This document shows, piece by piece, positions 7,971 to 63,427 of a stretch of DNA of 64,000 nt (position 1 is the stretch's first letter; each line of letters opens with the position of its first letter). The notes below the pieces were generated by a model that worked only from the letters and a program-made list of their open reading frames with translations, made no database searches and was not told where the DNA came from. Made by a program: the position numbers and the translations under genes. Source of the stretch: Vibrio sp. ED004 (GTDB lineage Bacteria; Pseudomonadota; Gammaproteobacteria; Enterobacterales; Vibrionaceae); the NCBI RefSeq assembly GCF_023206395.1, contig NZ_CP066149.1, positions 2,480,001 to 2,544,000 on the forward strand. The letters run 5' to 3'.

Positions 7971-8410
7971 AACGCGAATTGAACCTAAACAAGCCAGAAG
8001 TCTTACTTCTGGCTTGTTGCTTTTCTGGGGTATGGTTTTTCTATTTTTGGACTTCTTGCCCACGCTTTCTTACATTTTTCGTCAAATTTTGGACAAAACC
8101 ATGAGCTGACGGTAAATTTTGTTTAAAGTGTTTTTGCCTTGTAATGGCATTAGCTTATGATTAACTAATCTTAAATTAATTTAAGTGCTCGCTTGCTACT
8201 GATCATCAATATGTCTATTTAGGTTGGCTACTTGATAAACTAGCTTCCTGAGAAGGTCATCCATAACACTATGCGTGACGTTCGTCTTTAAGGGTTGATG
8301 ATTTAGGTAACAGGAAAAATTCCACATAAAGTGGGTTGTTAGATTGAGCTTAAACGACAATAAAAACCGCTCTCGTCAACCTGCGATAATACTTTAGAAG
8401 TTCACTCTCT
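7971..8410 (+). other. Intergenic gap rlmN-rodZ: terminator at 7988-8024, otherwise nothing recognised
   Basis: AACAAGCCAGAAGT pairs perfectly with ACTTCTGGCTTGTT (7988-8018), followed by GCTTTT, a clear rlmN terminator. The remaining 380 bases are AT-rich and probably hold the rodZ promoter, but no gene is visible. In pseudomonads pilF/pilW sits between rlmN and rodZ; no trace of it is seen here. Confidence 0.7.
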
Positions 8411-9364
8411 ATGAACACAGAACACGAAACACAAACGCAAGAAACGATTGCTCCTGCTTTAGAAGCTGGAACGCTGCTTAAGAATAAGCGCGAATCTCTT
8501 GGTTTAACGCAAAAGCAGATTTCAGATCGCCTGAAACTTCGTATTACGTTGATCCAGCAAATTGAAGAAAACCAATTCGAATCAGACCAAGTCGCAACGT
8601 TCATGCGTGGCTACATTCGTTCATACGCGAAATACGTCAATCTTGATGAAAAAGTGGTACTGAACGCGCTTCATCATGCTGGTGATGCTCAACATCAAGA
8701 ACAAGAAATGCTGAGCTTCTCTCGTAAAACAAAAACCGAGAAGCACAACAGCCGCATTATGATCCTTACTTGGAGCATTTTTGCTGTGATTGCTGGTATC
8801 TCTTCACTTTGGTGGTGGCAGAACCAACAACAAGACACCCTATCTCAATCTCTAGTGAATACTGAAAGCTCAGAAGAGCTTACCGTAGAAGAGTCACTTG
8901 ATCCTGAATTCGCTTCTTTAGAAGTGATTGAAGCGGAACAAAACGACGCTGCTTCTGCTATTGAAGACACTGAAGGCCTTACTGCAATCAGTGATGCGGC
9001 AGATACTTCAGAGGCTTTAACGCAAACTGATGAGACTGACGCACATTCAGCAACAGAGTCTGAAACCGCAGCTGTAGTTGCTGCTGAGCCAGAAGCGGTT
9101 GAAGCAGACGCTGCTCCTGAAGTTATAGCGAACGAGTTAGTGATGCAGTTCTCTGCTGATTGCTGGATCCAAGTAAAAGATGCAACAGGTAAAACCCTGT
9201 CGACTGGCATCAAAAAAGCAGGTCAGTCATTAAATCTATCAGGAACTGCGCCATATAAAGTGATTCTAGGTGCGCCAGAGGGCGTATCAATGACATTTGC
9301 AAGTGAACCTGTCGACCTTTCTGGGTATACTTCAGGCAAAGTAGCCAGAATAACCTTACCTTAG
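8411..9364 (+). CDS. rodZ: Cytoskeletal cell-shape protein RodZ
   Basis: Inner-membrane bitopic protein that links MreB to the elongation machinery and maintains rod shape. Architecture of the 317 residues: a cytoplasmic helix-turn-helix at about 20-90 ([18 protein letters not shown]), one membrane span at about 115-135 ([19 protein letters not shown]), a long Asp/Glu/Ala-rich periplasmic linker at about 145-235, and a C-terminal beta domain (DUF4115-like). ispG starts 7 bases downstream, so the two are probably cotranscribed. Confidence 0.92.
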
Positions 9365-10563: not shown

Positions 10564-11832
10564 GTGGCTAAAAATATCCAAGCAATTCGAGGCATGAACG
10601 ACTGCCTTCCAACTCAATCACCACTGTGGCAAAAAGTAGAAAGCGCAGTTAAAAACGTGGTGAGCGCATACGGTTACAACGAAGTACGTATGCCAATCGT
10701 TGAAGAAACGAACCTATTTAGCCGTGCGGTTGGTGAAGAAACTGATGTTGTTTCTAAAGAAATGTACACCTTTGATGACCGTAATGGCGATAGCCTAACG
10801 CTACGTCCAGAAGGCACAGCAGGTTGTGTACGTTCATGTATTCAAAACAGCCTTATCAACCGTGATGAACAGCGCCTATGGTACATGGGTCCAATGTTCC
10901 GTCACGAGCGTCCTCAAAAAGGTCGTTACCGTCAATTCCACCAATGTGGTGTGGAAGTGTTTGGCCTAGACGGTCCAGACGTAGACGCAGAACTTATCAT
11001 GATGACAGCACGTCTATGGCGTGAGCTAGGTATCGATAAGCACGTTCGCCTAGAGCTGAACTCAATCGGTTCTCAAGAAGATCGCGTAAGCTACCGCACT
11101 GCGTTAGTGGCATTTCTTGAGCAACACATCGATGTGCTAGATGAAGACTGCAAACGTCGCATGCACACCAACCCGCTTCGTGTACTAGATACTAAGAACC
11201 CAGACGTTCAAGCTATCTTAGGTGACGCACCTCGACTATCTGAATATTTAGGTGAAGAGTCGAAGCAACATTTTGCTGGTTTGTGTGAACTTCTTGACGC
11301 AGTTGGTATCGAATACCAAGTTAATGAGCGTCTAGTACGCGGCCTAGATTACTACAACCGCACAGTATTTGAGTGGATCACTGACAGCCTTGGTGCACAA
11401 GGTACAGTATGTGGCGGTGGCCGTTACGATGGTCTTGTTGAGCAACTAGGCGGCAAAGCAACCAATGCGGTTGGTTTCGCAATGGGTCTAGAGCGTCTGG
11501 TTCTGATGATGGAAACGCTAGAGCTAACAGAAGTTCGCCGTAGCGTTGATGTTTACGTAGTTGCTGCTGGCGAAGGTACTATGATCGCGGGCATGCAGTT
11601 AGCGAATCAATTACGCGACACCGTTGAAGGCGTGCGTGTGATGAACCACTTCGGTGGTGGTAACTTCAAGAAGCAATTCAAACGTGCTGACAAAGTAGGT
11701 GCTGTTGTAGCGCTTGTACTTGGTGAGAACGAAGTTGCTGACAATACCGTAGTGCTAAAAGATTTGGTTGGCGGCGAGCAAGAAACCGTGTCTCAAACGG
11801 AAGTTGCAGAGAAAGTTGCTGCACTAATCTAA
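10564..11832 (+). CDS. hisS: Histidyl-tRNA synthetase
   Basis: Class II aminoacyl-tRNA synthetase that charges tRNA-His. Class II motifs are visible ([17 protein letters not shown] for motif 2), as are the histidine-specific segments [14 protein letters not shown] and CGGGRYDGL, followed by an anticodon-binding C-terminal domain. The start is the GTG at 10564, giving [13 protein letters not shown] as in E. coli and 422 residues. A GTG 24 bases upstream is in frame but adds residues not expected in the family. Confidence 0.96.
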
Positions 11833-11912
11833 TTAGCCCTTGAGCAAACGCTCATAATGAATACTAACGTCAGCACTATGCTGGCGTTTAAAGAATTTAA
11901 AGAGGACAGGAA

Positions 11913-12527
11913 GTGGAACTTTACGATAGCGAAGAGCAACAGGTTGAAGCCATTAAAGATTGGTGGAAAGAGAACGGTAAAGCCGTAATCTTTGGTGCGG
12001 TTATTGGTTTAGGTGGTCTATTTGGCTGGCGCTATTACCAAGATTCAGTAGTTGAAGCGCGTGAAGCCGCTTCAGAAAGCTACACTTCTGTAATTTCAGC
12101 TCTTGATGTTAAGGGTGTTGATGCTCAATCTGATATTCAAGCTTTCATCGACGCAAACAAAGATGCTGAGTACTCAGTACTTGCTGCTATGCAACTAGCA
12201 AAAGTACAAGTACAAGCAGGCGATCTAGCGGCGGCACTTGAACAGCTCGAGTGGGCAAAATCGGCAACTAAGGACGCGGCACTTGCGCCACTACTTACTT
12301 ACCGTGTTGCACGCATCAAAGCTGAACAAGGTGAATTTGACGCAGCATTGACTGACCTTGCGGCAATGACCGACGAATCTTGGAAAGGCCGTGTTGCTGA
12401 ACTACGCGGTGATATTTCACTTCGTAAAGGCGACACTGACGCAGCATACAGTGCTTATACAGAAGCACAGCAAGCTGTTGATGCTAGCCAAACGCTTCAA
12501 ATCAAACTTGACGACCTAGCTAAATAA
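11913..12527 (+). CDS. yfgM: Membrane-anchored TPR protein YfgM
   Basis: Ancillary SecYEG / periplasmic chaperone network protein. It has a short cytoplasmic N-terminus with the family start MELYDSEEQQVEAIKDWWKEN, one membrane span at about 24-41 (AVIFGAVIGLGGLFGWRYY) and a periplasmic TPR-like helical domain. The start codon is GTG with an AAAGAGGACAGGAA ribosome-binding region. It lies between hisS and bamB, its conserved place; bamB starts 10 bases after its stop. Confidence 0.92.
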   Translation: MELYDSEEQQVEAIKDWWKENGKAVIFGAVIGLGGLFGWRYYQDSVVEAREAASESYTSVISALDVKGVDAQSDIQAFIDANKDAEYSVLAAMQLAKVQVQAGDLAAALEQLEWAKSATKDAALAPLLTYRVARIKAEQGEFDAALTDLAAMTDESWKGRVAELRGDISLRKGDTDAAYSAYTEAQQAVDASQTLQIKLDDLAK

Positions 12528-12537
12528 GGCGCTTTGA

Positions 12538-13698
12538 ATGAAGAAGATGTTTCCAAAAGCGGCGTTATGTGCGATTGCTCTTGGCCTACTAGCTGGCTGT
12601 GCAGGTGAAGAAGACACCGTAATCATGGCTCCAGTACCAACAGTAAACAGCGAGTTCACTCCTAAACAGGAATGGTCTACGTCGGTTGGTGATGGTGTTG
12701 GTCACTACTTTTCAAAACTAACGCCTGAATTGGCTTACGACAAAGTGTTTGTTGCAAGCCGCGAAGGTCTCGTTAAGGCGCTTGATCCTGAAACAGGTAA
12801 AGAGCTGTGGAAAGTAGATCTTGAGAAAGAAGTACTGGCTCGTTTGTCTGGCGGCTTAACTGCTGCTTACGGCAAGGTGTTTGTTGGTTCTGAAAATGGC
12901 GAAGTGATCGCGATGGACGAATCGACAGGTGAAGAACTGTGGCGTGTATCAGTGAACGGTGAGGTGCTTGCATCTCCTGCGACTGAAAGCAACATGGTGC
13001 TGATTCACACCAGTCGCGGCATGATGATCGCACTAGACCAAGAAAGCGGTGAACAGAAGTGGACAATCAGCACTGAAGTTCCAAGCCTAACACTGCGTGG
13101 CGACAGCACACCTGTTGCGGTTTCTGGTGGTGTATTCTGGGGCACAGCAAATGGTCGTCTAGCAGCAGCTATCGTAGACCGTGGTCAGCTTATTTGGCAA
13201 CAGCCAGTAGGTACGCCAAAAGGTGCTACGGAAATTGATCGCTTGGTTGATGTTGATGCATCTCCAATTGTTCTTGGCGGCACACTGTATACCGTAGGTA
13301 TCAATGGTCAGCTTATCGCTATCGATCTTCGTTCTGGTAAGCCAGTTTGGAAGCGTAACTACTCGTCTGCGATTGATTTAGCAAGTGACGGTAGTCGTTT
13401 GTTCGTTGTTACCGACAAAGACCATGTGGTAGCGGTTGATGCGCGTAGTGGTACTGAACTTTGGAGCACTCCATTGTTAGAAAACCGCTTACTGACAGCA
13501 CCTGCTATTATTAATGGTTATGTAGTCGTGGGTGACACCGAAGGTTATCTGCACTGGTTAGATCGTTCATCGGGTGAGTTTGTTGCTCAACAGCTGGTCG
13601 ATGATAGCGGCTTTGCGGTTGCACCAATTGAATTACCTGAAGGCTACTTAGTGACGACTCGCAATGGCGATGTAAAGAAACTGACGATTAGCCAATAA
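12538..13698 (+). CDS. bamB: Outer-membrane assembly lipoprotein BamB
   Basis: Beta-propeller lipoprotein of the BAM complex that folds outer-membrane proteins. The N-terminus MKKMFPKAALCAIALGLLAG is a lipoprotein signal ending in the lipobox LLAGC. The remaining sequence has repeated PQQ-type blades such as KALDPETGKELWKVDL and IALDQESGEQKWTIS. At 386 residues it is the expected length. A terminator follows. Confidence 0.96.
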   Translation: MKKMFPKAALCAIALGLLAGCAGEEDTVIMAPVPTVNSEFTPKQEWSTSVGDGVGHYFSKLTPELAYDKVFVASREGLVKALDPETGKELWKVDLEKEVLARLSGGLTAAYGKVFVGSENGEVIAMDESTGEELWRVSVNGEVLASPATESNMVLIHTSRGMMIALDQESGEQKWTISTEVPSLTLRGDSTPVAVSGGVFWGTANGRLAAAIVDRGQLIWQQPVGTPKGATEIDRLVDVDASPIVLGGTLYTVGINGQLIAIDLRSGKPVWKRNYSSAIDLASDGSRLFVVTDKDHVVAVDARSGTELWSTPLLENRLLTAPAIINGYVVVGDTEGYLHWLDRSSGEFVAQQLVDDSGFAVAPIELPEGYLVTTRNGDVKKLTISQ

Positions 13699-13719
13699 AA
13701 GCGTGATATAATTCACAGT

Positions 13720-13759
13720 CGGCTCCTGGTTGGTAACAGCCAGGAGCCGTTTTGTTGTT
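13720..13759 (+). terminator. Terminator after bamB
   Basis: CGGCTCCTGG pairs with CCAGGAGCCG (10 bp), followed by a T-rich tail. It separates bamB from der, which therefore probably has its own promoter in the 100 bases that follow. Confidence 0.85.
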
Positions 13760-13856
13760 AAAAATTAATAAACCGTGTGGTTATAGGTAAGAGTTTAAAC
13801 TTGCGAACAAGTGCTTACCTATAACTACATTTAGAGAAGAAATTGTAGAGGTTGTT

Positions 13857-15338
13857 ATGGTACCTGTTGTTGCTCTAGTAGGGCGTCCGAACGTAGGTAA
13901 ATCTACGTTATTTAACCGATTGACTCGAACTCGTGATGCATTGGTTGCGGATTTCCCTGGCTTAACGCGTGACCGTAAATACGGCCATGCTCATTTTAGC
14001 GAGCATGACTTTATTGTTATTGACACTGGTGGTATCGATGGTACTGAAGAAGGTGTTGAAACTAAAATGGCTGAACAGTCGCTAGCGGCGATTGATGAAG
14101 CTGATGTTGTTCTATTTATGGTAGATGGCCGTGCTGGTCTAACACCATCTGACGTAGCGATTGCTAAGCACCTTCGTCAGCTAGAAAAGCCTTCAATGCT
14201 AGTAGTAAATAAGGTTGACGGTATCGACCCTGATGCTGCAAGTGCTGACTTCTGGCAACTAGGCGTAGAAGACATGTATCAAATCGCAGCTGCGCACGGT
14301 CGTGGTGTAACAGCGCTGATTGATCTTGCTCTTAACCCGTTCGCAGAAGCGCTAAAAGCGGAAAATGGCGAAGTAAGCGATTTAACTGAGTTTGAAGACG
14401 AAGAAGAAGAGCAGGTTGAATTTACAGAAGAAGAAGCTGAAGAAGAATTCAAGCGTCTTCAAGATCAACCAATCAAGCTAGCGATCATTGGTCGTCCTAA
14501 CGTAGGCAAATCAACACTAACTAACCGTATTCTTGGTGAAGAGCGTGTGGTTGTTTACGATATGCCTGGTACGACTCGTGACTCTATCTACATTCCAATG
14601 CAGCGTGACGAGCGTGAATACGTTCTAATCGATACTGCGGGTGTTCGTCGTCGTAAGAACATCAACGAAACAGTAGAGAAATTCTCAGTAGTTAAAACAC
14701 TGAAAGCGATTGAAGATGCGAACGTTGTATTACTGCTTATTGATGCTCGTGAAAACATCTCTGATCAAGATCTAAGCTTGTTAGGCTTTGCGTTGAACGC
14801 AGGTCGTTCAATCGTGATTGCGGTAAACAAGTGGGATGGCCTAGATAACGACGTTAAAGAGCGCGTTAAGAAAGAGCTAGACCGTCGTTTAGGTTTCGTT
14901 GATTTCGCACGTATTCACTTCATCTCTGCACTTCACGGTACAGGTGTTGGCCACTTGTTTGAGTCTGTTCAAGAAGCTTACAAGTCAGCGACGACTCGTG
15001 TTGGTACTTCTGTTCTAACTCGTATCATGAAGATGGCAACTGATGATCACCAACCGCCTATGGTTCGTGGCCGTCGTGTGAAACTGAAATACGCGCACGC
15101 TGGTGGCTACAACCCACCGATTATCGTTATCCACGGTAACCAAGTACGTAACTTGCCAGATTCATACAAACGATTCTTGATGAACTACTACCGTCGTTCA
15201 CTAGAGATTATGGGTACACCAATTCGCATTCAATTCCAGAACAGCGAGAACCCATTTGAAGCTAAGACTAACAAGCTGACAATCTCTCAAGAGCGTAAAC
15301 GTAAGCGTATGATGAGCATGGTTAAAGGCCGTAAATAG
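13857..15338 (+). CDS. der: Ribosome-associated GTPase Der (EngA)
   Basis: Tandem-GTPase needed for 50S subunit maturation. The 493 residues contain two G domains, with P-loops [14 protein letters not shown] near residue 9 and [14 protein letters not shown] near 212. NKVDG and NKWDG specificity motifs are also present. The G domains are joined by an acidic linker (about 175-200, Glu-rich) and followed by a KH-like RNA-binding domain with a basic C-terminus. It has its own terminator. Confidence 0.97.
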
Positions 15339-53090: not shown

Positions 53091-54212
53091 TTAAAATGCG
53101 TAAGACAGGCTAAGGAAGTGCAGTCTATGTGTGGTCATTTTGCCCACGTAATCGTTGCCACCAGTAAATGAGTAAGTCACATCAGGGGTTCCCAAATCAC
53201 GATACTCATAGGCTAGGCCAATTCTATGTTTGTTTGTGAGAGTGTATTCCAAGCCAGCTCCAATAGCCCATTGGTCTACCAGTGGTAGGTCTGGTTTTGC
53301 ATCGTAGTCATTCATCGCTTTACTATCGTATCGAGCACCCACTTGATACTTCCATGAGCCTTGGGTGTAGTTTACCGCGCCACCTAAATGGTAGGTATTC
53401 TTCATGGTACGGTCATCAGCCTTGCCGTACGCTTTCCACTCTTCAAAGCCAGTCTGCAATTTTACTCCCCATTGCTCATCAATTTGATGACTTAATCCAA
53501 CCGTTAATATACTTGGCCATTTGAATTCTTTATTGAATCTGTAGTCATCAATATTGAGCTTTAGTTTGTGCTCTGTGGCGTGTTTGTAATTGATAGCTAA
53601 GTACGTGGAAGGGCTGAAATCGTACATTGCAGACAGCATAAAGGAGGCGCGTGTTGAATCGTCGTCGCTGTTCATGATTAATGGAATATCAAGTTCTGCA
53701 CTTAAGTTTTGTACAATGAGAGCTCCACCTAAAGACAGCTTTTCATTCAGTTGATAGGCTGCACCTAGATGTAAGTTTGCGATCTCTACAGATTGTTCCC
53801 TATATATTCCCCCTCCCATTAAGCCATTGTTGTATTTCATTCCAAGGCCGCCTTCACCGTGCAATGACGCACCTAATACAATCTTGTCTGTTAGGCGCTG
53901 AGCTATGGCTGCACTGGGTAGTACCGTGCGTTTTTTCCCTCGAGTTGTCGTATGTTCACCATAAAGGTCACCATCATGCGCAGAAGCTGCATCAAGGTAC
54001 TGGATACCAATAGATAGGCTTAGGTCTTCTATGGCAGATAAACCTGCAGGGCTGGTGATCATGGCAGAGGCATCCGTGCGATTCGTTGAGTTGGCAATCC
54101 CTGCCGAAGAAACACTATCAAACGTTGCCACTTCGGGAAGTGCAATTGCGCCAGCAACTACGCTACCCGTAAAAAAAGTGGACATAATGAGAGCTGTCTT
54201 GGAGATCTTCAT
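53091..54212 (-). CDS. FadL/OmpP1/TodX-family outer-membrane channel
   Basis: Outer-membrane beta-barrel for uptake of hydrophobic molecules. The 373 residues have a signal peptide (MKISKTALIMSTFFTGSVVA). The N-terminal plug region is typical of the family (SSAGIANSTNRTDASAMITSPAGLSAI, broken here as ANSTNRTDAS then AMITSPAGL). Many alternating beta strands and a terminal aromatic (SLSYAF) follow. A shared 30-bp motif lies 85 bases upstream of the start. Its position next to a LysR gene and dehydrogenases suggests it imports their substrate. Confidence 0.88.
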   Translation of the reverse strand: MKISKTALIMSTFFTGSVVAGAIALPEVATFDSVSSAGIANSTNRTDASAMITSPAGLSAIEDLSLSIGIQYLDAASAHDGDLYGEHTTTRGKKRTVLPSAAIAQRLTDKIVLGASLHGEGGLGMKYNNGLMGGGIYREQSVEIANLHLGAAYQLNEKLSLGGALIVQNLSAELDIPLIMNSDDDSTRASFMLSAMYDFSPSTYLAINYKHATEHKLKLNIDDYRFNKEFKWPSILTVGLSHQIDEQWGVKLQTGFEEWKAYGKADDRTMKNTYHLGGAVNYTQGSWKYQVGARYDSKAMNDYDAKPDLPLVDQWAIGAGLEYTLTNKHRIGLAYEYRDLGTPDVTYSFTGGNDYVGKMTTHRLHFLSLSYAF

Positions 54213-54296
54213 CGAAACTTCCTCTTAATCTTTGGTGTTGATATACAGAAATGGATTTTCAGCGCACCAAGATTAAGGGAAGAGTTCGGTTTAGAA

Positions 54297-54326
54297 ACAG
54301 GAAACCCAAGATTTACCATTCTGGTT
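54297..54326 (-). promoter_or_regulatory. Shared regulon motif, site 5 (fadL-like gene)
   Basis: On the minus strand the site reads AACCAGAATGGTAAA, then TCTTGGG, then TTTCCTGT. GTAAA-TCTTGGG-TTTCCT is nearly identical to site 4 in front of the second SDR gene. The left arm is diverged. Confidence 0.6.
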
Positions 54327-54350
54327 TCTTAGGTTTTCGGGAAGATCGGC

Positions 54351-55223
54351 TTATTTTAAAACCGACGATATGGTGTTAAACAACCATTGGTTTAGAGGAT
54401 CGTTTTTCTGTGCACGCCTACAGCTCATAACATAGGTGATATCAAACCCTTGAACGTTAGGTAAGTCGATAACTCGGCAGCCTTTTGGAACGTTGTCAGT
54501 CATGGTTAACCCGAAATGATCGGATTGGAGAACGATTTTATGACTCATTACTGGGTGTTCAACTTCAACCTTCGGCTCAATGTGGTAGCCAACATTGCTG
54601 AGTCTCTCTAGCATATGGTATCTATGATCGTTCCATCCAGGTGTCTTTAGTACGACCATTGGATATTTGACTAGCGCTTTTATATCTTGCGCGGGGTGAT
54701 CTTCTCTAACGAAAAATACCGCTTTATCTTCGCCGATTTCTCTTTGGGCAATAGATTGAGGAAGTGCGTCATCGAAGCTATGGATCGCGACAGATTTTTC
54801 TCCATCAATCATGTTGTTTTTGGCGCTGTTGTCCCAGCGAAGGAAAGAAAACTTTGCATTCGGCGCGTCTTGAATTAATGCCAGGTACAGTTTGTCGCCA
54901 AACCTATCCCAAAACAGTGTATTGGCATAAATATGGACCGGCTCTCGTAATGATTGAGGAGCGAATTCACGGTGTTTAATAGAATCCGCATAACTCAAAA
55001 TATTCTCAAAGTTATCCATGTTTGCTTCAACAAACGCTGTGGGTTCAAAGCCTTGTTTTGTTTGGATAAATAAAGGGTCATCAAGCTGAGACTTTAGTTT
55101 TGTTAGGTTTTTGCTGATTGCCCCTGATGTTTTTCCAAGCTCTTCAGCAACCAGTTTTACGTTGCGCAGCTCATACATTTTTTTTAGTACGATGATGTTT
55201 TGAAGATCTAAGTTGAGGTTCAT
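54351..55223 (-). CDS. LysR-family transcriptional regulator
   Basis: The 290 residues (start at the ATG 55223, with GGAGAAG 6-7 bases upstream) have an N-terminal winged HTH at about 18-60 (VKLVAEELGKTSGAISKNLTKL) and a LysR substrate-binding domain. Longer in-frame starts upstream lack a ribosome-binding site. It is divergent from the first dehydrogenase and convergent with nothing; fadL-like gene follows in the same direction after 138 bases. It is the obvious candidate to bind the 30-bp motif shared by five promoters here. Confidence 0.9.
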   Translation of the reverse strand: MNLNLDLQNIIVLKKMYELRNVKLVAEELGKTSGAISKNLTKLKSQLDDPLFIQTKQGFEPTAFVEANMDNFENILSYADSIKHREFAPQSLREPVHIYANTLFWDRFGDKLYLALIQDAPNAKFSFLRWDNSAKNNMIDGEKSVAIHSFDDALPQSIAQREIGEDKAVFFVREDHPAQDIKALVKYPMVVLKTPGWNDHRYHMLERLSNVGYHIEPKVEVEHPVMSHKIVLQSDHFGLTMTDNVPKGCRVIDLPNVQGFDITYVMSCRRAQKNDPLNQWLFNTISSVLK

Positions 55224-55331
55224 TTTAAACTTCTCCAAATTCGACTGTTTCATCATAGCGCTATTCTTCATTTGAAATAAATAAAATTTAAACAATGAGA
55301 TAGAAGCGACAAATATTATAATTCAACGCAA

Positions 55332-55364
55332 TTTCCAATTTGGAAACGTCGCCTTTAGTCGCTA
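55332..55364 (+). promoter_or_regulatory. Shared regulon motif, site 1 (LysR box before dehydrogenase A)
   Basis: TTTCCAATTTGGAAA is a perfect dyad containing a T-N11-A LysR box. After 7 bases comes TTTAGTCGCTA. It lies in the lysR-dehydrogenase intergenic region, 94 bases from the downstream ATG. Confidence 0.65.
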
Positions 55365-55458
55365 AATCCATCATAAGTTTATAGATTGAATCCAACGCGA
55401 AATACACCGATTTGGTGTCGATTGCATAACGTTAGAGTTCCAGGTTAGAGAGGTTCCT

Positions 55459-56643
55459 ATGAGCAATAAAAGAGTACTAATTACAGGTGTTGGTGGCGTA
55501 GGTGTATTTGCTGCGCATTTGGTGGCTGCATTGCCGGGTGTTGATTTGTTCTTGGGAGATATTCGCGAGAATTTCATTAAGCATAAGGCTTGCTGCATTA
55601 AAGATAATGCGATGTGGTCTAATCCTGAAAAACCATACCCTAACGTGACTCCTGTCGTGATGGATCTAATGGATGTGGAGTCGACAACGTCACAATTGCA
55701 TGAGATCAAACCTGATGTAGTGATTCATCTTGCTAGCTTATTGGCGGCAGGAAAGATTCGAACAGCTGTTCCTCTTGAGATAGCAAAAACTATTTATGAT
55801 GCCAACCCTGTCGGTACTGGGTTACGTCCATGGGCTCCTGGACATGCCGTGTTGCTCGTAAACCTGATGAAATCACTTCATGCTGCAGGCTTAGAAGAGA
55901 CAAAAGTTATCAACGGTTCTGGCTGTGATTTCTTACATGTAGCGCTAAAGTCTCGTGGCCTTGCCCCTACTTGTGGCCTCGGTGATTTTGCTTTAGGTGA
56001 GCCAGCGTTAAAGCGTATCATCTCTCGAAAATACGGCGTTGAACAAAGTGATGTTCGTATCCATTTAGCAGGGCATCATTCATTGATTATGCCGTTAATG
56101 TTTGTGGGTACGAATCAAAATATCCCTTATTACATTGATGTGGCTGTGCTAGGCCGTAATGTCACGGCAGAGCTTGATTTTGAAAACGATATCTTCCCAC
56201 TGATGATTGATGAGAATACGTGGCCTGCGGAAGTTGGGCTTTCAGATCAAGAGCAGACTGCAGCACATGGCGTAGCGATAGCTCGAGCTATTTTGTTTGA
56301 TACTAATGAAGTCATGAATGTCCCAGCACCACAAGGTTTACCGGGCTGCTACCCAGCAAGGGTTAATGCAAACGGTGTTGAGGTGATTGTTCCAGAAGGG
56401 ACCAGCCTTGAAGAGATGGTTGAAGTAAACCGAGCTGGTAATGTTGCTGAAGGTTTCAAAGAAATTCGTGAAGATGGCACTATGGTTGCGACGGATTTGA
56501 CGGTAGAGATCATCGAAAGAACGTTCGGTATTGAATGGAAATACAAAGCATTCACACCAGACAATGCTTTTGAAGCATTTAAAGAGATCAATACAGCATT
56601 CAATCGTTTCGTTGAAGATTATCACGCAAATAATCCAGCGTAA
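55459..56643 (+). CDS. Rossmann-fold NAD(P)-dependent dehydrogenase A (tandem paralogue 1)
   Basis: The 394-residue protein begins with a dinucleotide-binding motif GVGGVGVFAAHLV near residue 10. It has an acidic residue after strand 2 (FLGDIRE) and an extended-SDR-like KPDVVIHLASLLAAGKI. The C-terminal domain contains GLGDFAL, AGHHSLIMPL and PAPQGLPGCYPARV. I cannot name the family with confidence. It is cytoplasmic, with no signal or membrane span. It has its own promoter motif and terminator, and is about two-thirds identical by eye to the next gene. Confidence 0.7.
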   Translation: MSNKRVLITGVGGVGVFAAHLVAALPGVDLFLGDIRENFIKHKACCIKDNAMWSNPEKPYPNVTPVVMDLMDVESTTSQLHEIKPDVVIHLASLLAAGKIRTAVPLEIAKTIYDANPVGTGLRPWAPGHAVLLVNLMKSLHAAGLEETKVINGSGCDFLHVALKSRGLAPTCGLGDFALGEPALKRIISRKYGVEQSDVRIHLAGHHSLIMPLMFVGTNQNIPYYIDVAVLGRNVTAELDFENDIFPLMIDENTWPAEVGLSDQEQTAAHGVAIARAILFDTNEVMNVPAPQGLPGCYPARVNANGVEVIVPEGTSLEEMVEVNRAGNVAEGFKEIREDGTMVATDLTVEIIERTFGIEWKYKAFTPDNAFEAFKEINTAFNRFVEDYHANNPA

Positions 56644-56660
56644 CGAATTCTGTACTTTTT

Positions 56661-56691
56661 AAAAAGCAGGCTGTCATAGCCTGCTTTTTTT
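56661..56691 (+). terminator. Terminator after dehydrogenase A
   Basis: AAAAAGCAGGCT pairs with AGCCTGCTTTTT around GTCAT, followed by further T residues. Confidence 0.9.
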
Positions 56692-56708
56692 GTTGCTGAC
56701 GGGTTGGA

Positions 56709-56741
56709 TTTCCTAGTTAGAAATCTTGCATTTAGTCGCTA
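56709..56741 (+). promoter_or_regulatory. Shared regulon motif, site 2 (before dehydrogenase B)
   Basis: TTTCCTAGTTAGAAA, then TCTTGCA, then TTTAGTCGCTA. The 15-bp dyad, the 7-base spacing and the 11-base distal word match site 1. It is 100 bases before the downstream ATG. Confidence 0.65.
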
Positions 56742-56841
56742 TGACTCGAAGATATTAAGACAATGATTACGTCGATATGGATCGTCATTTTTTCTATGGA
56801 TAAGGATCTCGCTATCCAATTTAGCTACTGAGGAATAAGTT

Positions 56842-58038
56842 ATGAGCAATAAAAGAGTATTGATTACAGGTGTTGGTGGTGTTGGTGTTTTTGCTTCTCA
56901 TTTAGTTGGTGCGTTACCTGGTGTAGAGTTATATCTCGGCGACATTCGTGAAGACTACATCACATTTAAAGCGAATAGCGTTAAAGATAACGCGTTTTAT
57001 TCAAATGACGGTTCAACGTATCCGGTCGTTGAACCAGTAAAAATGAACTTAATGGATGTAGAAGAAACAACTAAACAGTTAGAAGAGATTCGTCCAGATG
57101 TCATTATTCATTTAGCAAGCTTACTCGCCGCCCAAAAAATTCGTGAGCGCTTACCTGTGGATATAGCCAAGACGATTTATGATCCAAATCCTGTAGGAAC
57201 AGGTTTACGACCATGGGCGCCGGGCCATGCTGTATTGCTAACAAATCTAATGCGATCTGTAAAAGCAAGTGGAATCAAAACGCATGTAATCAATGGTTCT
57301 GGCTGTGACTTCCTTCATGTGGCGCTAAGTAAATATGGGTTAGAGCCAACGTGTGGTTTAGGAGACTTTGCTCTGATTGAGCCGTCGGTAACTCGTATTT
57401 TAGCTAAGCAATTTAATGTATCACCGCGCGATATTTCAATGCGTATGGCTGGGCACCACTCTATCGTTATGCCTCTGAGCTTCTTCGGAGAAACCTCGGG
57501 GGTGCCTTATTATATTGATGTCACTGTAAATGGTCGAAACGTAAGTAACGAGATCGACTTTGAGAAAGACGTATTCCCTCATATCCCGAAAGAAACATCA
57601 TGGCCGACCAATGCCCAAGCTAGTGATCAAGAACAAACTGCCGCTCACGCTGTCCGAATTGCGAAAGCGATATTGTTTGATTCTCAAGAAATGCTCAACG
57701 TTCCGGCTCCTCAAGGTCTGCCAGGCTGCTATCCAGCAAGAGTTGGAGCAAATGGCGTTGAAGTGGTGATTCCTGCAGGAACGACATTGGAAGAACTTGT
57801 TGCTATCAACAATGAGGGAAATGTTGCTGAAGGCTTCCAAGAAATTAGAGAGGACGGGACCATGGTTGCAACAGCTCGAACAGTCGAATTAGTCGAACAA
57901 ACTTTTGGTATTGATTGGAAATACAAAGAGTTCACTCCGGATAACGCGCAAGAGGCGTTCAATGAAATAAACAGTGCTTTCTGGCACTTCATTGAAAAGT
58001 TTGAAGCCGAGCAAGTAAAAGAAAATGTGAGCGCTTAA
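56842..58038 (+). CDS. Rossmann-fold NAD(P)-dependent dehydrogenase B (tandem paralogue 2)
   Basis: The 398-residue paralogue of the preceding gene has the same start (MSNKRVLITGVGGVGVFA), the same RPDVIIHLASLLAAQKI and GTGLRPWAPGHAVLL segments and the same C-terminal PAPQGLPGCYPARVGANGVE. Differences cluster in surface-like stretches and the last 15 residues. Separate promoter motif and terminators suggest both copies are kept active, perhaps for related substrates or as a hetero-oligomer; this is inference. Confidence 0.7.
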   Translation: MSNKRVLITGVGGVGVFASHLVGALPGVELYLGDIREDYITFKANSVKDNAFYSNDGSTYPVVEPVKMNLMDVEETTKQLEEIRPDVIIHLASLLAAQKIRERLPVDIAKTIYDPNPVGTGLRPWAPGHAVLLTNLMRSVKASGIKTHVINGSGCDFLHVALSKYGLEPTCGLGDFALIEPSVTRILAKQFNVSPRDISMRMAGHHSIVMPLSFFGETSGVPYYIDVTVNGRNVSNEIDFEKDVFPHIPKETSWPTNAQASDQEQTAAHAVRIAKAILFDSQEMLNVPAPQGLPGCYPARVGANGVEVVIPAGTTLEELVAINNEGNVAEGFQEIREDGTMVATARTVELVEQTFGIDWKYKEFTPDNAQEAFNEINSAFWHFIEKFEAEQVKENVSA

Positions 58039-58065
58039 GAGAATAATGCGTCATAAAACCGTAAC

Positions 58066-58092
58066 CAAAGCCAGCTTAGATAGCTGGCTTTG
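58066..58092 (+). terminator. Terminator after dehydrogenase B
   Basis: CAAAGCCAGCT pairs perfectly with AGCTGGCTTTG around TAGAT, followed by a T-rich stretch. Confidence 0.85.
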
Positions 58093-58120
58093 TTCTTTTA
58101 AATCAATCGAATAAAAGTAG

Positions 58121-58150
58121 TTTCTGGTTGGTAAATACTGGCTTTCCTCG
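58121..58150 (+). promoter_or_regulatory. Shared regulon motif, site 3 (before SDR 1)
   Basis: TTTCTGGTTGGTAAA, then TACTGGC, then TTTCCTCG. It shares TGGTAAAT and TTTCCTCG with site 4 at identical spacing. It is 65 bases before the ATG. Confidence 0.6.
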
Positions 58151-58215
58151 TTTATTGCTATGCCGATGATTAAGATGAATTTAGTTTAAAAATACATCAA
58201 CAGTGAGGATAAATT

Positions 58216-58967
58216 ATGACTCTACTAACAAACAAAATTGCCATTATCACTGGTGCAGCATCTGGTATAGGCCTTGATTGTGTTCGCCTTTTTTTGGATG
58301 AAGGGGCTCAAGTTATTGCCGGTGATATTAACATCTCTCCAGAGATTCTTTCTATCAGCGAAGAAAGCAGCCGTTGCTTTTTACGACCGCGGATGTGACA
58401 TCTGAAAGTGATCATCAAAAGATGGTTGAGCTAGCGATTGAAAAATTCGGCAAAGTAGATATTTGTTTTAATAATGCGGGCATTATTGGTGATACGGGTA
58501 GTTTAGGCGCTGATCAAGATATGAACTTATTCGATACAGTATTTAACGTGAATGTTCGTGGCGTGGCATTGGCAATGAATACGCAGATCAAATATTTCTT
58601 ATCAGCTGGGATTAAAAACCCAGCGATCATTAATACTTCGTCAATTGCTGGTCAAGCTGCAGTCCCAGGTTGTGCTCCTTATATTGCTTCTAAGCATGCG
58701 GTGGTCGGGTTAACTAAAACTTATGCAGTGGATTATGCGAAGTATGGCATTCGCATCAATATGGTAGCTCCTGGTGTGATTGCCACCCCAATGATAACCG
58801 AAGATGCGGATGAAGAGCGAGCGGCTGCTACATTGGCTGCACATCCAATTGGCCGCATTGGAGAGCCTCGTGAAATCAGTGAGCTAGTCGCATTCCTAGG
58901 TTCAGATCGAGCAGGATTCATCAACGGTGCTTATTATAACGTGGATGGTGGTTATTTAGCTATTTAA
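58216..58967 (+). pseudogene. Short-chain dehydrogenase/reductase 1, single-base frameshift
   Basis: Classical SDR of about 250 residues if corrected. It has the cofactor motif TGAASGIG at 12-19, NNAGII, and the active-site Y-x3-K in PYIASKHAVVGLTK. The reading frame is lost in a T5 run at 58378-58382: adding one T joins SSRCF to FTTADVTSES and restores the whole protein. As written, the first frame stops at 58398 after 60 codons. It is either a true lesion, a slippage-prone switch, or a homopolymer base-calling error. Confidence 0.85.
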
Positions 58968-59021
58968 AAATCTATTGTTATGGTCTCCTATTTTTCATAA
59001 CGAGCGTTTATTCGCTTCTTT

Positions 59022-59050
59022 GGCCAGCCGTCGGGGCTGGTCTTTTTTTT
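59022..59050 (+). terminator. Terminator after SDR 1
   Basis: GGCCAGCC pairs with GGGCTGGTC (wobble) around GTCG, followed by eight T. Confidence 0.8.
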
Positions 59051-59057
59051 GTTTTCA

Positions 59058-59665
59058 GCCCTAAACCACCTACTTCAATAGGTGGTTATCATTCAGTTTG
59101 GCTTTGCCTGTAGTTCTACCCATGTTAAATGCTCCCTTGATTTTTAGCGAAGTCAAAGAGGACAAATAACATGAGCAGATATAATCAAGCTTCCCACGTA
59201 TTTTGGAGATGTCAATATCACATAGTGTGGACACCAAAGTATCGATTTAGGATTTTGAAAAACAATGTAGGTAAAGAAGTTTATCGATGTATAAACGTTT
59301 ACTGTAATCAACTTGGATGTGAAGTCGTTGAATTAAACGTTCAAGTTGACCACGTGCACTTGGTAGTAAAAGTTCCGCCTAAGTTATCGATATCCAAGTT
59401 GATGGGCGTATTGAAAGGCAAAATAGCTTTAAAACTCTTTAGTAAATTTCCATATTTAAGGAGAAACAAACTCTGGGGTAACCACTTTTGGCAAAGGGGC
59501 TATTTTGTCGATAGCGTAGGGGTTAATGAAGAAATCATTCGACGCTATGTAAGACATCAAGAGAAAAAAGAGCGCGTGGAGCAGCAGCAATTGGCGTTGG
59601 ACTAAACAAAGGCCCCCTTTTAGGGGGCTCACATAAAGCCACCTTCTTTAGAAGGTGGTAATTTA
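59058..59665 (+). mobile_element. IS200-type insertion sequence (tnpA only)
   Basis: Ends are marked by stem-loops rather than inverted terminal repeats. The left is AACCACCTA/TAGGTGGTT (59064-59087) and the right is CCACCTTCT/AGAAGGTGG (59639-59658), as in Y1-transposase elements. A GCCCCC/GGGGGC hairpin follows the tnpA stop (59612-59628). No tnpB/IscB-type accessory gene is present. Exact cleavage ends cannot be fixed by eye. Confidence 0.8.
59171..59605 (+). CDS. tnpA: IS200/IS605-family Y1 transposase TnpA
   Basis: Single-strand 'peel-and-paste' transposase. The 144 residues show the HUH metal motif H61-V-H63 (QVDHVHLVV), the catalytic tyrosine Y126 in RRYVRHQEKK, and the N-terminal YHIVWTPKYRF typical of IS200. 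All catalytic residues are intact, so the element may be active. It sits between the frameshifted SDR and a small exported protein. Confidence 0.93.
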   Translation: MSRYNQASHVFWRCQYHIVWTPKYRFRILKNNVGKEVYRCINVYCNQLGCEVVELNVQVDHVHLVVKVPPKLSISKLMGVLKGKIALKLFSKFPYLRRNKLWGNHFWQRGYFVDSVGVNEEIIRRYVRHQEKKERVEQQQLALD

Positions 59666-59703
59666 CTTATATCTTTGGATATGAGTGAGGTGAAGGTGAT
59701 GAA

Positions 59704-60024
59704 ATGAAAAAAGTATTTCTCTCTATAGTTGTTTTGTATGGGATGTCAATCGGTCAGGTGAGTGCCTTGAGCTTATTCTTGGAGTCATCACAAAAGGACA
59801 TCGGTCACCGGTACTTCAACCACTTTGTTGAGGCCTACAGTGAGCCTGTGGACTCACAAAAGAAGAGCAGGTCGCTTAGGTGCTCTGAATATGATGAGGC
59901 TTTCTTCAGTACGCACCCTCCTCACCTTTACGTATCTCAAGACAGTACAGTGGCCACTACTCAATTTACTTCAAAATTGCAATATCCAGCCTCGTGTTAT
60001 TTCCCCTTCGTACTTGATGAATAA
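59704..60024 (+). CDS. Small exported protein of unknown function
   Basis: 106 residues with a plausible signal peptide (MKKVFLSIVVLYGMSIGQVSA, cleavage near residue 21). Two cysteines in the mature part (in LRCSEYDEAF and ASCYFPFV) could form a disulfide. No family recognised. It starts about 40 bases after the IS200 right end, so its original upstream region may have been displaced by the insertion. It could also be a truncated remnant. Confidence 0.5.
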   Translation: MKKVFLSIVVLYGMSIGQVSALSLFLESSQKDIGHRYFNHFVEAYSEPVDSQKKSRSLRCSEYDEAFFSTHPPHLYVSQDSTVATTQFTSKLQYPASCYFPFVLDE

Positions 60025-60031
60025 TGAGTTA

Positions 60032-60061
60032 CTTCCATCTGGTAAATCTTGAGTTTCCTCG
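60032..60061 (+). promoter_or_regulatory. Shared regulon motif, site 4 (before SDR 2)
   Basis: CTTCCATCTGGTAAA, then TCTTGAG, then TTTCCTCG, with the same geometry as sites 1-3. It is 79 bases before the SDR 2 ATG and would also control the MFS gene. Confidence 0.65.
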
Positions 60062-60140
60062 CCCACCGTGAGGCTAAAAATTACGATAACAACATCAATC
60101 AGTCATTCATTTTTCTTCATCCATATGCGAGGACAATATT

Positions 60141-60893
60141 ATGAAAATGCTAAACGATAAAGTTGCAGTGGTTACAGGTGCGGGTTCAGGGATTGGACGA
60201 AGCATTGCTATTGATTACGCCCAACAAGGTGCGAAAATCGTAGTCTCTGATATTAACGAACAAGGCGGTATGGATACTGTAAACCACATTGTGGCGTTTG
60301 GTGGAACTGCGTGTTTCCAATATGCGAATGTGGCGAGCTTAGAAGATAATTTAGCGTTGGTGGAGCGTGCGGTTGCTGAATATGGTCACTTGGACATCGC
60401 ATGTAATAACGCAGGTGTAAGTCATGAGCTGCATCAAACTGGTGATATTTCTGTTGAGAGCTGGAAGTTTGTTATGGATGTGAACTTAACTGGCGTGTTC
60501 TATGGAATGAAAGCGCAAATAGAGCAGATGAGGAAAAGTGGCGGTGGCAGTATTGTGAATATCGGTTCTGTACTTAGTCAGCGTGGATTTCAAGGTGCAG
60601 GCGCCTATGTTGCAACTAAGCATGCAGTCGTTGGTTTGACTAAAAATGCTGCGTTGGATCATGCAGCTGAAGGCATCCGTGTAAATTGTGTTGGGCCTGC
60701 ATATGTGAATACACCGTTAGTTACTGCTGCACTCAATGAACAACAAGTCGAAGGCTTAAAAGCGCTTCATGCGATGGGACGTTTAGGAGAAGAACAAGAG
60801 ATCGCAGATCTGGTGACTTTTGTCAGCTCAGACAAGGCTAGCTTCATCACTGGCGAATACTATGCAGCAGATGGAGGCTACCTCATCCGCTGA
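60141..60893 (+). CDS. Short-chain dehydrogenase/reductase 2
   Basis: Classical SDR, 250 residues, intact. It has TGAGSGIG at 12-19, an acidic residue after strand 2 (VVSDINE) suggesting NAD preference, NNAGVS, a Ser in VNIGSVLSQRG, and Y156-x3-K160 in GAYVATKHAVVGLTK. It probably oxidises or reduces an alcohol/ketone; the substrate is unknown. It is followed after 67 bases by the MFS gene and is probably cotranscribed with it. Confidence 0.9.
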   Translation: MKMLNDKVAVVTGAGSGIGRSIAIDYAQQGAKIVVSDINEQGGMDTVNHIVAFGGTACFQYANVASLEDNLALVERAVAEYGHLDIACNNAGVSHELHQTGDISVESWKFVMDVNLTGVFYGMKAQIEQMRKSGGGSIVNIGSVLSQRGFQGAGAYVATKHAVVGLTKNAALDHAAEGIRVNCVGPAYVNTPLVTAALNEQQVEGLKALHAMGRLGEEQEIADLVTFVSSDKASFITGEYYAADGGYLIR

Positions 60894-60960: not shown

Positions 60961-62598
60961 ATGAAATCTACTACGCTCGCACCTTCAGAAAACACGGGGC
61001 TAAAAAAGTGGTTTCCGTTGTTTGTTCTGCTTGCTGCACAGTTTTCTACAATGTCAGACAATGCAGGGCTGGCAGTATCTACAGAAGCTATGATCGCATT
61101 ATTCAACGCATCCATGGCTGAAATTCAAATGGCAAATGCGATTTATCCACTGGTGGCTGCAGCCGGGATGATAACAGGCGGCTTAACAGGCCTAATAATC
61201 GGTTGGAAACGCCAAATGTTGTTAGGAGCTGCTTTAATGGCGAGCTCAGCATTTGTTAGTGCTGTCGCACCCAATATGATGGTGTTAAATACGGTTGCTC
61301 GATTTTCCTGTGGGGTTGCTGGTTGTCTTCTAATACCTGCGGTACTTGCAAATGTGGCAGGTATTTATAAAGGAAAAGATCAGGCAATTGCATTTGCTGC
61401 TATTGCTGCATTTCTTGGTGTAGCTAGTGCTCTAGCGCCTGTCATTTTTGGTGTGATGATTGATATAGCAGGCTTTAGAGCAGCGTTTGCAGTGCAAGGT
61501 ATTTACTGTGCCGTTTTGACAGCCGCTGTGTTTATAATTATTCCAAATATTGATTCTGATAAGTTTAAAGGAAGAGTTGATTTCGTTGGTATTGCTGCGG
61601 CTGCGATTGGTTTAGCTTTCTTTGTGACAGGGTTGTTGAAGGTATCAGAGTGGGGGCTTGTTGACCCTATAGGTGATTTCCAACTATTTGGAATTTCCCC
61701 GGCTTTACCTAGTGTATTGCTTGGTGTGGCTATTTTGATTGGCCTGATCAAGTGGGAAAAGCACTTTGAACTCACTGGTGGTACGCCATTGCTACCCCAA
61801 ATTTTTATTACTAATCAACAGGTCCTACGTGGTCTATATCTTTGTGCGACGGTATTTTTGTTGTTTGGCTTCACATCGTTTGTCAATGTAAGCTACATGC
61901 AGTTAGTCGCTGGCTTTAACGCCATTGAGTCTGCATCTGCATTAGTGTGCTTTGCGGCGGGTATGATTATCGGTTCAATCTCGACAACAAAAGCACTAAG
62001 TCACCTATCTTGCAAACGAGTAACCCAATTAGGATTTGTTTTAGTTTCTGTGGGTATACTGTTGATGTTTTTTGGCTTCTCGGTCGAAGGTATTACAGCG
62101 TGGCAGTATGTTTCATTGCTCATTTTTGGCACTGGGTGCGGCATTGTCGCTTCCCAATCATCTTTGGTGGTGACTAATGCATTACCAGAAAAAGAAGCGA
62201 GACAGTCGGGGGGGATTCAAGCAACGTTCCGTAATTTCGGACAAGCGATGGGAGTGGCGATTCTAGGTTCTATTATGCTGTTCTCATTTACGGGCGAAAT
62301 TCAAAAGGGTTCAATCCAGGACTCAATGCTATCACCACAGACACAACAAGTTATATCAGAGCAAAAGCTTATCCCATTTTCATCGAATGAGATGATTGTG
62401 GATATGATGAAGAATAGTGTCATTGAGAAATCTGAATGGCAGCCTGTCTTAGATATTGTTGCGGATTCAAGGCTTGCATCGGTTCAATACACAATGTTTG
62501 TACTTTTAGTATGGATGTCTCTTTCTATCTTTGTTTGTAATGGGTTGCCTAATTACTCGTTGATGCAAGACCGGAAAAAAGAACCGGTCGAGTTGTAA
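60961..62598 (+). CDS. EmrB/QacA-type MFS transporter (DHA2, 14-TM)
   Basis: Inner-membrane proton-coupled transporter, 545 residues with about 14 hydrophobic spans. The ATG at 60961 has AAGAGG upstream; earlier in-frame starts would overlap the SDR gene. Family-like segments are NAIYPLVAAAGMITGGLTGLIIGWKR and SGGIQATFRNFGQAMGVAILGSI. It may import the pathway substrate or export a product. Two terminators follow. Confidence 0.85.
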   Translation: MKSTTLAPSENTGLKKWFPLFVLLAAQFSTMSDNAGLAVSTEAMIALFNASMAEIQMANAIYPLVAAAGMITGGLTGLIIGWKRQMLLGAALMASSAFVSAVAPNMMVLNTVARFSCGVAGCLLIPAVLANVAGIYKGKDQAIAFAAIAAFLGVASALAPVIFGVMIDIAGFRAAFAVQGIYCAVLTAAVFIIIPNIDSDKFKGRVDFVGIAAAAIGLAFFVTGLLKVSEWGLVDPIGDFQLFGISPALPSVLLGVAILIGLIKWEKHFELTGGTPLLPQIFITNQQVLRGLYLCATVFLLFGFTSFVNVSYMQLVAGFNAIESASALVCFAAGMIIGSISTTKALSHLSCKRVTQLGFVLVSVGILLMFFGFSVEGITAWQYVSLLIFGTGCGIVASQSSLVVTNALPEKEARQSGGIQATFRNFGQAMGVAILGSIMLFSFTGEIQKGSIQDSMLSPQTQQVISEQKLIPFSSNEMIVDMMKNSVIEKSEWQPVLDIVADSRLASVQYTMFVLLVWMSLSIFVCNGLPNYSLMQDRKKEPVEL

Positions 62599-62749: not shown

Positions 62750-62878
62750 AACTAGAGTAGTACAGCATATTCACGCGTGTTTTATGAGATCTTGAGCGCT
62801 TGGAAATAGGAGCTTTCCTCTTCAATGTGAGAGTGTGTAGATAAACTGGTTGCACATTAAAGTTGAAGGAGAAGCCCT

Positions 62879-63427
62879 ATGAATGTTTGTACTCATTTCC
62901 CTAAAAGTAGCCTAACTAAAAAAGCACAGTTTGCTTACGGTGTTGGTGAAGAGCAACGTGAAGTTTTGATTGATAAAGTCATTGTGGATTACATCGAAGA
63001 ACATTGCTCTCCGTTGTTAAATCCTAAGCGAACTATTGAACTTATTCTCTTAGAAAATGTTCACTTTATTGAACATGCCAGGCAGAAAACTCAGAAAAAA
63101 GATGCACTTGAAGATTATGTCGTTAATGCTATTTCTGCATCGTTGATGAACGTCACTCCAGTTTCTTATGACGCAAACCAAGTTGTTGACGTGAAGTTTG
63201 ATAATTTGGTTTTTCAATGTGGAAAGTTAGTGTCGAAAACGATCAAAATTCCACAGTTCATACTTTGTATGATGAGGGAGCAAGACGTCATTCAAATCGT
63301 TGAGGATGAAGTTATCAATATTGAGGCTAAAAACTTCGATTTTGCGCTCTTTGTCGATTATATCCGTGGTGTTTTATTCTCCACATTATTTGAGCATAAA
63401 GTGGAAGCTGATAATTGGGTCCATTGA
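62879..63427 (+). CDS. Conserved hypothetical protein, 182 residues
   Basis: I do not recognise the family. It has no signal peptide or membrane span and is mixed helical/acidic. Segments such as VDYIEEHCSPLLNPKRTIELILLEN and VDVKFDNLVFQCGKLVSKTIKIPQF (each read as two parts) are not diagnostic. It has a good GAAGGAG ribosome-binding site and is bounded by terminators on both sides, so it is a separate unit. Confidence 0.65.
   Translation: MNVCTHFPKSSLTKKAQFAYGVGEEQREVLIDKVIVDYIEEHCSPLLNPKRTIELILLENVHFIEHARQKTQKKDALEDYVVNAISASLMNVTPVSYDANQVVDVKFDNLVFQCGKLVSKTIKIPQFILCMMREQDVIQIVEDEVINIEAKNFDFALFVDYIRGVLFSTLFEHKVEADNWVH

Follow-up and report, generated by a model that had tools for sequence, protein, structure and literature searches.

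Among described systems, the closest to the locus analysed here are the promoters of LysR-type transcriptional regulators (LTTRs), which, according to PMC5603801, carry a T-N11-A recognition-binding site upstream and an activation-binding site (ABS) near the -35 region, for instance the pnp promoters, to which PnpM and PnpR bind; the same paper states that a conserved motif for the ABS had yet to be identified. The window examined here, a stretch of 64 kb (G000:C1:2480001-2544000) from the genome of Vibrio sp. ED004 (5.83 Mb, two contigs), contains a gene cluster composed of fadL and lysR on the minus strand, two dehydrogenase genes (dehA, dehB), a short-chain dehydrogenase gene (SDR1), an IS200-type (insertion sequence) transposase gene, a second short-chain dehydrogenase gene (SDR2), and a major facilitator superfamily (MFS) transporter gene, and a 30-bp element recurs at five of its promoters. 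The locus resembles the promoters of that paper in having an upstream T-N11-A dyad, a second site beside the -35 region and a regulator gene near the targets, and differs from them in that its proximal arm is conserved (TTTCCTCG) and stands at a fixed distance from a -10-like box. Comparison of the elements makes it probable (roughly 80%) that all five are operators of an LTTR through which the cluster genes would be switched together, and a predicted regulon of the cluster genes sharing the element is well supported. The original prediction had placed a LysR regulon around this cluster; its common operator held, while the confinement of that operator to the cluster and the specific pathway assigned to it did not. 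The -10-like box, the broken reading frame of SDR1, the IS200-type transposase gene and the possible sixth element formed no part of that prediction.

The 30-bp element in the cluster

All five predicted elements were recovered, and they align without gaps across 30 bp, before fadL (54297..54326, minus strand), dehA (55332..55361, plus strand), dehB (56709..56738, plus strand), SDR1 (58121..58150, plus strand), and SDR2-MFS (60032..60061, plus strand). The spacing between arms is fixed, as had been claimed, although the description of the arms as the same at all five sites was loose, since the distal arm before fadL is degenerate. The proposed distance of 65-100 bases to the start came close, with the element ending 84, 97, 103, 65, and 79 nt from the starts of fadL, dehA, dehB, SDR1, and SDR2, respectively. 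The perfect T-N11-A dyad expected in the lysR-dehA gap is present as TTTCC-N5-GGAAA at the dehA site; it is perfect before dehA both in the window and in the corresponding cluster of Vibrio sp. D404a, and imperfect at the other sites. The consensus of ten sites (five from the window and five from D404a) reads TTTCC-N5-GTAAATCTTG-N2-TTTCCTCG and holds about 35 bits of information before any small-sample correction. A 21-nt core pattern, itself picked from the sites under test, matched three times in the 64 kb at three or fewer mismatches (fadL, SDR1, and SDR2) and never in 100 shuffles. These shuffles, the cross-genome matrices and the Vibrio-wide co-occurrence described below rule out a chance motif.

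A tentative sixth element (62792..62821, plus strand), with TAAACT at the offset typical of the -10-like box, lies 57 nt before the ATG of an open reading frame (ORF) of 182 aa (62879-63427). Its score falls inside the simulated range, and R1, a sequence-only model of the ten sites, does not list it at E<=10. This ORF has no Pfam or NCBIfam match, and a weak search, run without a positive control, returned no match in eight relatives including D404a.

Conservation in Vibrio sp. D404a

A GTDB contig scan found a single carrier of the cluster, Vibrio sp. D404a (L009), whose gene order differs from that of the window: MFS(-), SDR2(-), SDR1(-), a dehydrogenase(+), fadL(-), lysR(-), and dehA(+). 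Despite this rearrangement, the five counterpart promoters carry the element, so that the motif is kept before counterparts elsewhere, as the original prediction required. The second D404a dehydrogenase shares 56-59% identity with DehA as well as with DehB, and is therefore treated as a counterpart and not clearly as the dehB orthologue. With a weight matrix made from the D404a sites only, four window sites ranked 1-4 (30.9, 25.7, 22.6, and 19.4 bits; in 40 simulations the highest score averaged 13.2 and never exceeded 20.4), whereas the fadL site came 8th (8.8 bits). The reciprocal, window-only matrix (100 simulations, top score 10.2 on average and 18.1 at most) ranked the D404a sites 1-4 and 6 in L009, with rank 5 falling inside the dehA coding sequence; the D404a dehA site (rank 6, 14.4 bits) lies within the simulated range, and the counterpart of the fadL site (L009:8644) scored 19.3 bits. 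A second, weaker element occurs in the lysR-dehA region of D404a (L009:9751-9780), with TTTCCAATTGGTAAA present and the proximal arm missing, and perhaps serves lysR itself.

Promoter layout

The -10-like box begins 21 nt past the end of the element, namely TTAATC before fadL (~54271-54276), TAGATT before dehA (55382-55387), GACAAT before dehB (56759-56764), TAAGAT before SDR1 (58171-58176), and TACGAT before SDR2 (60082-60087). When a -10 weight matrix was slid along the DNA downstream of the element, the score peaked at offset 21 in three sets, the five window sites (2.6; next best -0.79), the five D404a sites (0.70; next best -0.11), and a non-redundant set of 36 other sites (3.73; next best -0.71). 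For the ten cluster sites, the observed mean was not attained by any of 20000 draws with random offsets. The -35 region at the usual 17-bp distance consists of TCG and three variable bases and is poor, so that an activator seems to be needed. The proximal arm TTTCCTCG repeats the pentamer of the first arm 22 bp further on. The predicted layout is thus that of a LysR-type promoter, with a distal TTTCC-N5-GGNAA dyad, a proximal TTTCCTCG arm, a poor -35 region and a fixed -10 box.

Occurrence of the element across Vibrio

A scan of the Vibrio sp. ED004 genome with R1 returned the five cluster sites, a better-scoring one at C1:96381 (E 7.8e-6), and two further matches of weak score (E 0.84 and 1.98). 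The C1:96381 site sits outside the cluster, between a second LysR and a VPA0252-family protein of 79 aa (NF052666, 143.9 bits, cut-off 100), hereafter the core pair. In a survey of 227 Vibrio genomes (site threshold E<=0.01, with filters that lose weak matches; LysR threshold E<=1e-60, some matches being fragments), the site was found in 49 genomes and the LysR of this clade in 57, and both were present in 48, against 12.3 expected. The distance between site and LysR match is 52-260 bp in all 48, and the 49th site-bearing genome (G688) retains a 43-residue LysR remnant by its site. VPA0252 was detected in 46 of the 227 genomes, 42 of them among the 49 that bear the site (9.9 expected), and in each of these 42 the site lies 63-123 bp upstream of the VPA0252 match; in three of the seven site-bearing genomes without such a match (G136, G690, and G707), another protein of 80-87 aa with a signal-like start occupies the same place. 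The C1:96381 site and the sites in 49 of 227 genomes rule out a motif private to the cluster. Among 58 examined loci, 18 are weak R1 matches (E ~0.05 or worse) and were treated as noise, because none adjoins a LysR, VPA0252 or cluster gene.

The VPA0252 family with its neighbouring LysR and the cluster are alike in the element, the LysR clade and the distance to the -10 box; they differ in their targets, one small secreted protein in the former, and transport and redox genes on an island in the latter. A search of PMC under CC0, CC BY and CC BY-SA licences found no paper on VPA0252/VPA0253, a scope too narrow for any claim that these proteins are absent from print. At two corresponding loci, L115 (G621) and L119 (G176), sites lie by a small lipoprotein-like gene; the LysR of G176 is a truncated protein of 156 aa, and the G621 locus gave no LysR match.

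Two LysR paralogues in one genome

The cluster regulator gene (54351..55295, minus strand; probable start ~55223 from alignment with its relatives) encodes a protein with PF00126 (HTH_1, 35.6 bits, cut-off 26.6) and PF03466 (LysR_substrate, 32.4 bits, cut-off 28) domains, and shares about 60% identity (58-61%) with the core LysR. In a tree of LysRs from the loci retrieved, the 36 that are linked to the motif fall into a single clade (96/97), to which five further LysRs of the Vibrio sp. ED004 genome do not belong. Within this clade, the window LysR and that of the D404a cluster group with the G621, G130, and G176 LysRs (82/85), and 23 core LysRs form a separate group (94/96). The motif GKT-N4-SK in the helix-turn-helix region is invariant in ten of ten aligned LysRs, with GKTSxAISK in seven of ten, which fits a putative common operator. 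The two paralogues may share one operator, since the core pair carries the element and the LysRs are about 60% identical; the island described below may have brought its own regulator of a pre-existing clade, and each paralogue may act on the sites of the other as well as on its own.

Genes of the cluster

The FadL-like outer membrane channel is encoded at 53091..54212 (minus strand; PF03349, 80.8 bits, cut-off 29.7). DehA (55459..56643, plus strand) is assigned by family searches and a structure model to a rare family of enzymes with a lactate/malate dehydrogenase (LDH/MDH) fold, and DehB (56842..58038, plus strand) is 68% identical to it. The reading frame of SDR1 (58217..58967, plus strand) is broken: the frame from ATG 58217 runs for 60 codons to a stop, and the remainder is open in another frame (58374-58967), this open piece matching adh_short above cut-off; the D404a counterpart is open over its full length. 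The IS200-type transposase gene (59171..59605, plus strand; PF01797 and NF033573 above cut-off) lies between SDR1 and SDR2. The break and this gene may be signs that the cluster is decaying in this strain; alternatively, the break may stem from faulty sequencing. They are followed by SDR2 (60141..60893, plus strand; PF13561 and PF00106 above cut-off) and the MFS transporter gene (60961..62598, plus strand; PF07690 above cut-off). An ORF of 106 aa with a signal-like start (59704-60024) lies between the IS200-type gene and SDR2, and D404a has a 114-aa ORF in a like place; no kinship is claimed for the two, because 9 of 500 shuffles scored equally high.

The DehA/DehB family was found in two of the 227 Vibrio genomes, G000 and G695 (taken as D404a), and neither protein has a Pfam match. 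An AlphaFold2 model (mean predicted local distance difference test score 91.2) compared by Foldseek and VIA-align 2 showed the LDH/MDH fold. In LDH, the catalytic histidine H195 is paired with D168, and R171 binds the substrate. In the profile alignment of DehA to 4plh these positions correspond to H207, G180, and A183, respectively; since the aspartate and arginine are replaced, DehA is kin by fold and not a lactate or malate dehydrogenase, and DehA/DehB differ from those enzymes both in identity (~20%) and in the changed active site. Besides in the genome itself, relatives occur in 4 of 398 genomes of a phylum sample (25-28% identity) and in 1 of 369 of a class sample (E 7e-28), and none was found in viral contigs. 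Relatives were also found in 17 plasmid records, all at <60% identity, of which 13 belong to Rhizobium, Sinorhizobium, Mesorhizobium or Martelella; three plasmid neighbourhoods, with alanine racemase and a DMT transporter twice and with AroM and creatininase once, gave no function. Two different DehA relatives, P0005 and P0008, each come from a JGI contig of 3838 bases; they may be tandem neighbours on a single contig, as dehA and dehB are here.

The transfer-messenger RNA island

Homology to the relatives G652 and G591 stops at window position 52956, the stop codon of a protease-like gene, and in both relatives the transfer-messenger RNA (tmRNA) follows about 200 bp past this gene, the extra DNA being absent. 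In Vibrio sp. ED004, the match to G652 picks up again at the tmRNA 3' end (G000:C1:2570302), so that about 37.3 kb are extra. This DNA contains a tyrosine integrase adjoining the tmRNA, two HipA-type proteins, a resolvase, an HmaABC set and, judged by eye, two IS21-like genes; GC content falls from ~0.45 ahead of the boundary to 0.40-0.44 beyond it. On the strength of the extra DNA, the integrase and the absence in a relative, the cluster is predicted to sit on a tmRNA-associated genomic island, which resembles other tmRNA (ssrA) islands in its extra DNA at the tmRNA 3' end and its tyrosine integrase and differs from them in a cargo that includes a metabolic cluster. The two HipA-type proteins and a TOTE-type primase-helicase lie at L125:5767-6765, 7932-9275, and 11709-14081, and the anti-phage HmaABC genes (PADLOC) at L129:77-8279 (G000:C1:2559076-2567278), the HmaA match covering profile positions 409-1174 of 1176. 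A tRNA/tmRNA scan of the D404a stretches L009, L128, and L133-L135 found none, so the D404a cluster is not shown to adjoin a tmRNA.

Regulatory interpretation and significance

What the DNA itself provides is the element, its spacing, the -10-like box, conservation, the link to one LysR clade and the island setting; from these we infer binding, activation and not repression, an inducer, and the oxidising, reducing or exporting of a hydrophobic compound as the task of the cluster. A LysR tetramer would contact the DNA at two places, the distal dyad TTTCC-N5-GGNAA and, at a distance of two helical turns, the proximal arm TTTCCTCG abutting the poor -35 region; with inducer it would recruit RNA polymerase to the -10 box starting 21 nt past the element. 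The operator would be a wider Vibrio element tied to one LysR clade and mostly found beside small secreted proteins of the VPA0252 type. As the cluster has its own LysR of this clade, the island genes for the FadL channel, the two LDH-fold enzymes, the short-chain dehydrogenases and the MFS transporter would be switched together by it, and may answer to the core paralogue too.

Several points weigh against this interpretation. The co-occurrence figures are inflated by the relatedness of the genomes, and the P values (9e-39 and 1e-33) make the association look too strong, as related species do not count as independent observations; in addition, nine genomes with the LysR show no site at E<=0.01, and four with VPA0252 show none. 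The window fadL site has a poor -10 box (-1.51), the fadL sites being the poor ones in both genomes, and it is not significant with the D404a matrix, therefore resting on the core pattern, which it matches with two mismatches, and on its D404a counterpart. The offset peak in D404a is small (0.70 against -0.11), with the fadL box one base off. Another transcription factor might bind the element instead, the proximity of LysR being incidental; second VPA0252 copies, moreover, can carry a site with no LysR match alongside (L027). Such a factor is nevertheless very improbable, given a LysR within 260 bp in 48 of 49 site-bearing genomes and a LysR remnant in the last. That a single regulator controls the cluster, as first proposed, is unproven, because a second LysR of the clade stands beside the best-scoring site of the same genome, and either paralogue may act on the cluster. 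The position of that site between the core LysR and VPA0252, and the similarity of the two LysRs (with like helix-turn-helix regions), would suit an arrangement in which the core LysR mainly governs the cluster, the island plugging into the host operator and its own LysR being redundant or specialised. We consider this unlikely, as lysR lies by dehA in both known clusters, with a site between the two genes in each, and the cluster LysRs group with three further LysRs and away from those of the core pairs, albeit with moderate support (82/85).

As to function, the pathway of uptake, oxidation and transport that had been proposed was not borne out, since the nearest matches of the MFS protein are efflux pumps (far below cut-off), SDR1 is broken and the evidence gives no substrate. 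The FadL channel, redox enzymes and MFS transporter fit use or disposal of a hydrophobic compound, the two being nearly equal. Detoxification and export, in place of use as food, falls a little short of even odds: efflux pumps such as SmvA are the top NCBIfam matches of the MFS protein, and no CoA (coenzyme A) ligase, oxygenase or thiolase family was found among the cluster genes scanned against Pfam and NCBIfam, but the efflux matches fall far short of their cut-offs (67.7 bits for SmvA, where 701 are required), FadL-type channels usually serve uptake, and several dehydrogenases together equally fit catabolism. It is a tentative and rather doubtful extension that the clade forms an unnamed system with a conserved proximal arm, normally running a small secreted protein, whose operator the tmRNA island borrows for an undescribed hydrophobic-compound pathway with a new LDH-fold family, the paralogues cross-talking.

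The analysis draws attention to a small family of LDH-fold enzymes that Pfam does not cover, and supplies an uncharacterised Vibrio LysR clade with a putative operator, a layout for its promoters and targets of two kinds, by which its inducer and function become testable in laboratory strains. One switch would thereby connect a rare metabolic island with a small secreted protein that 46 of the 227 Vibrio genomes encode.

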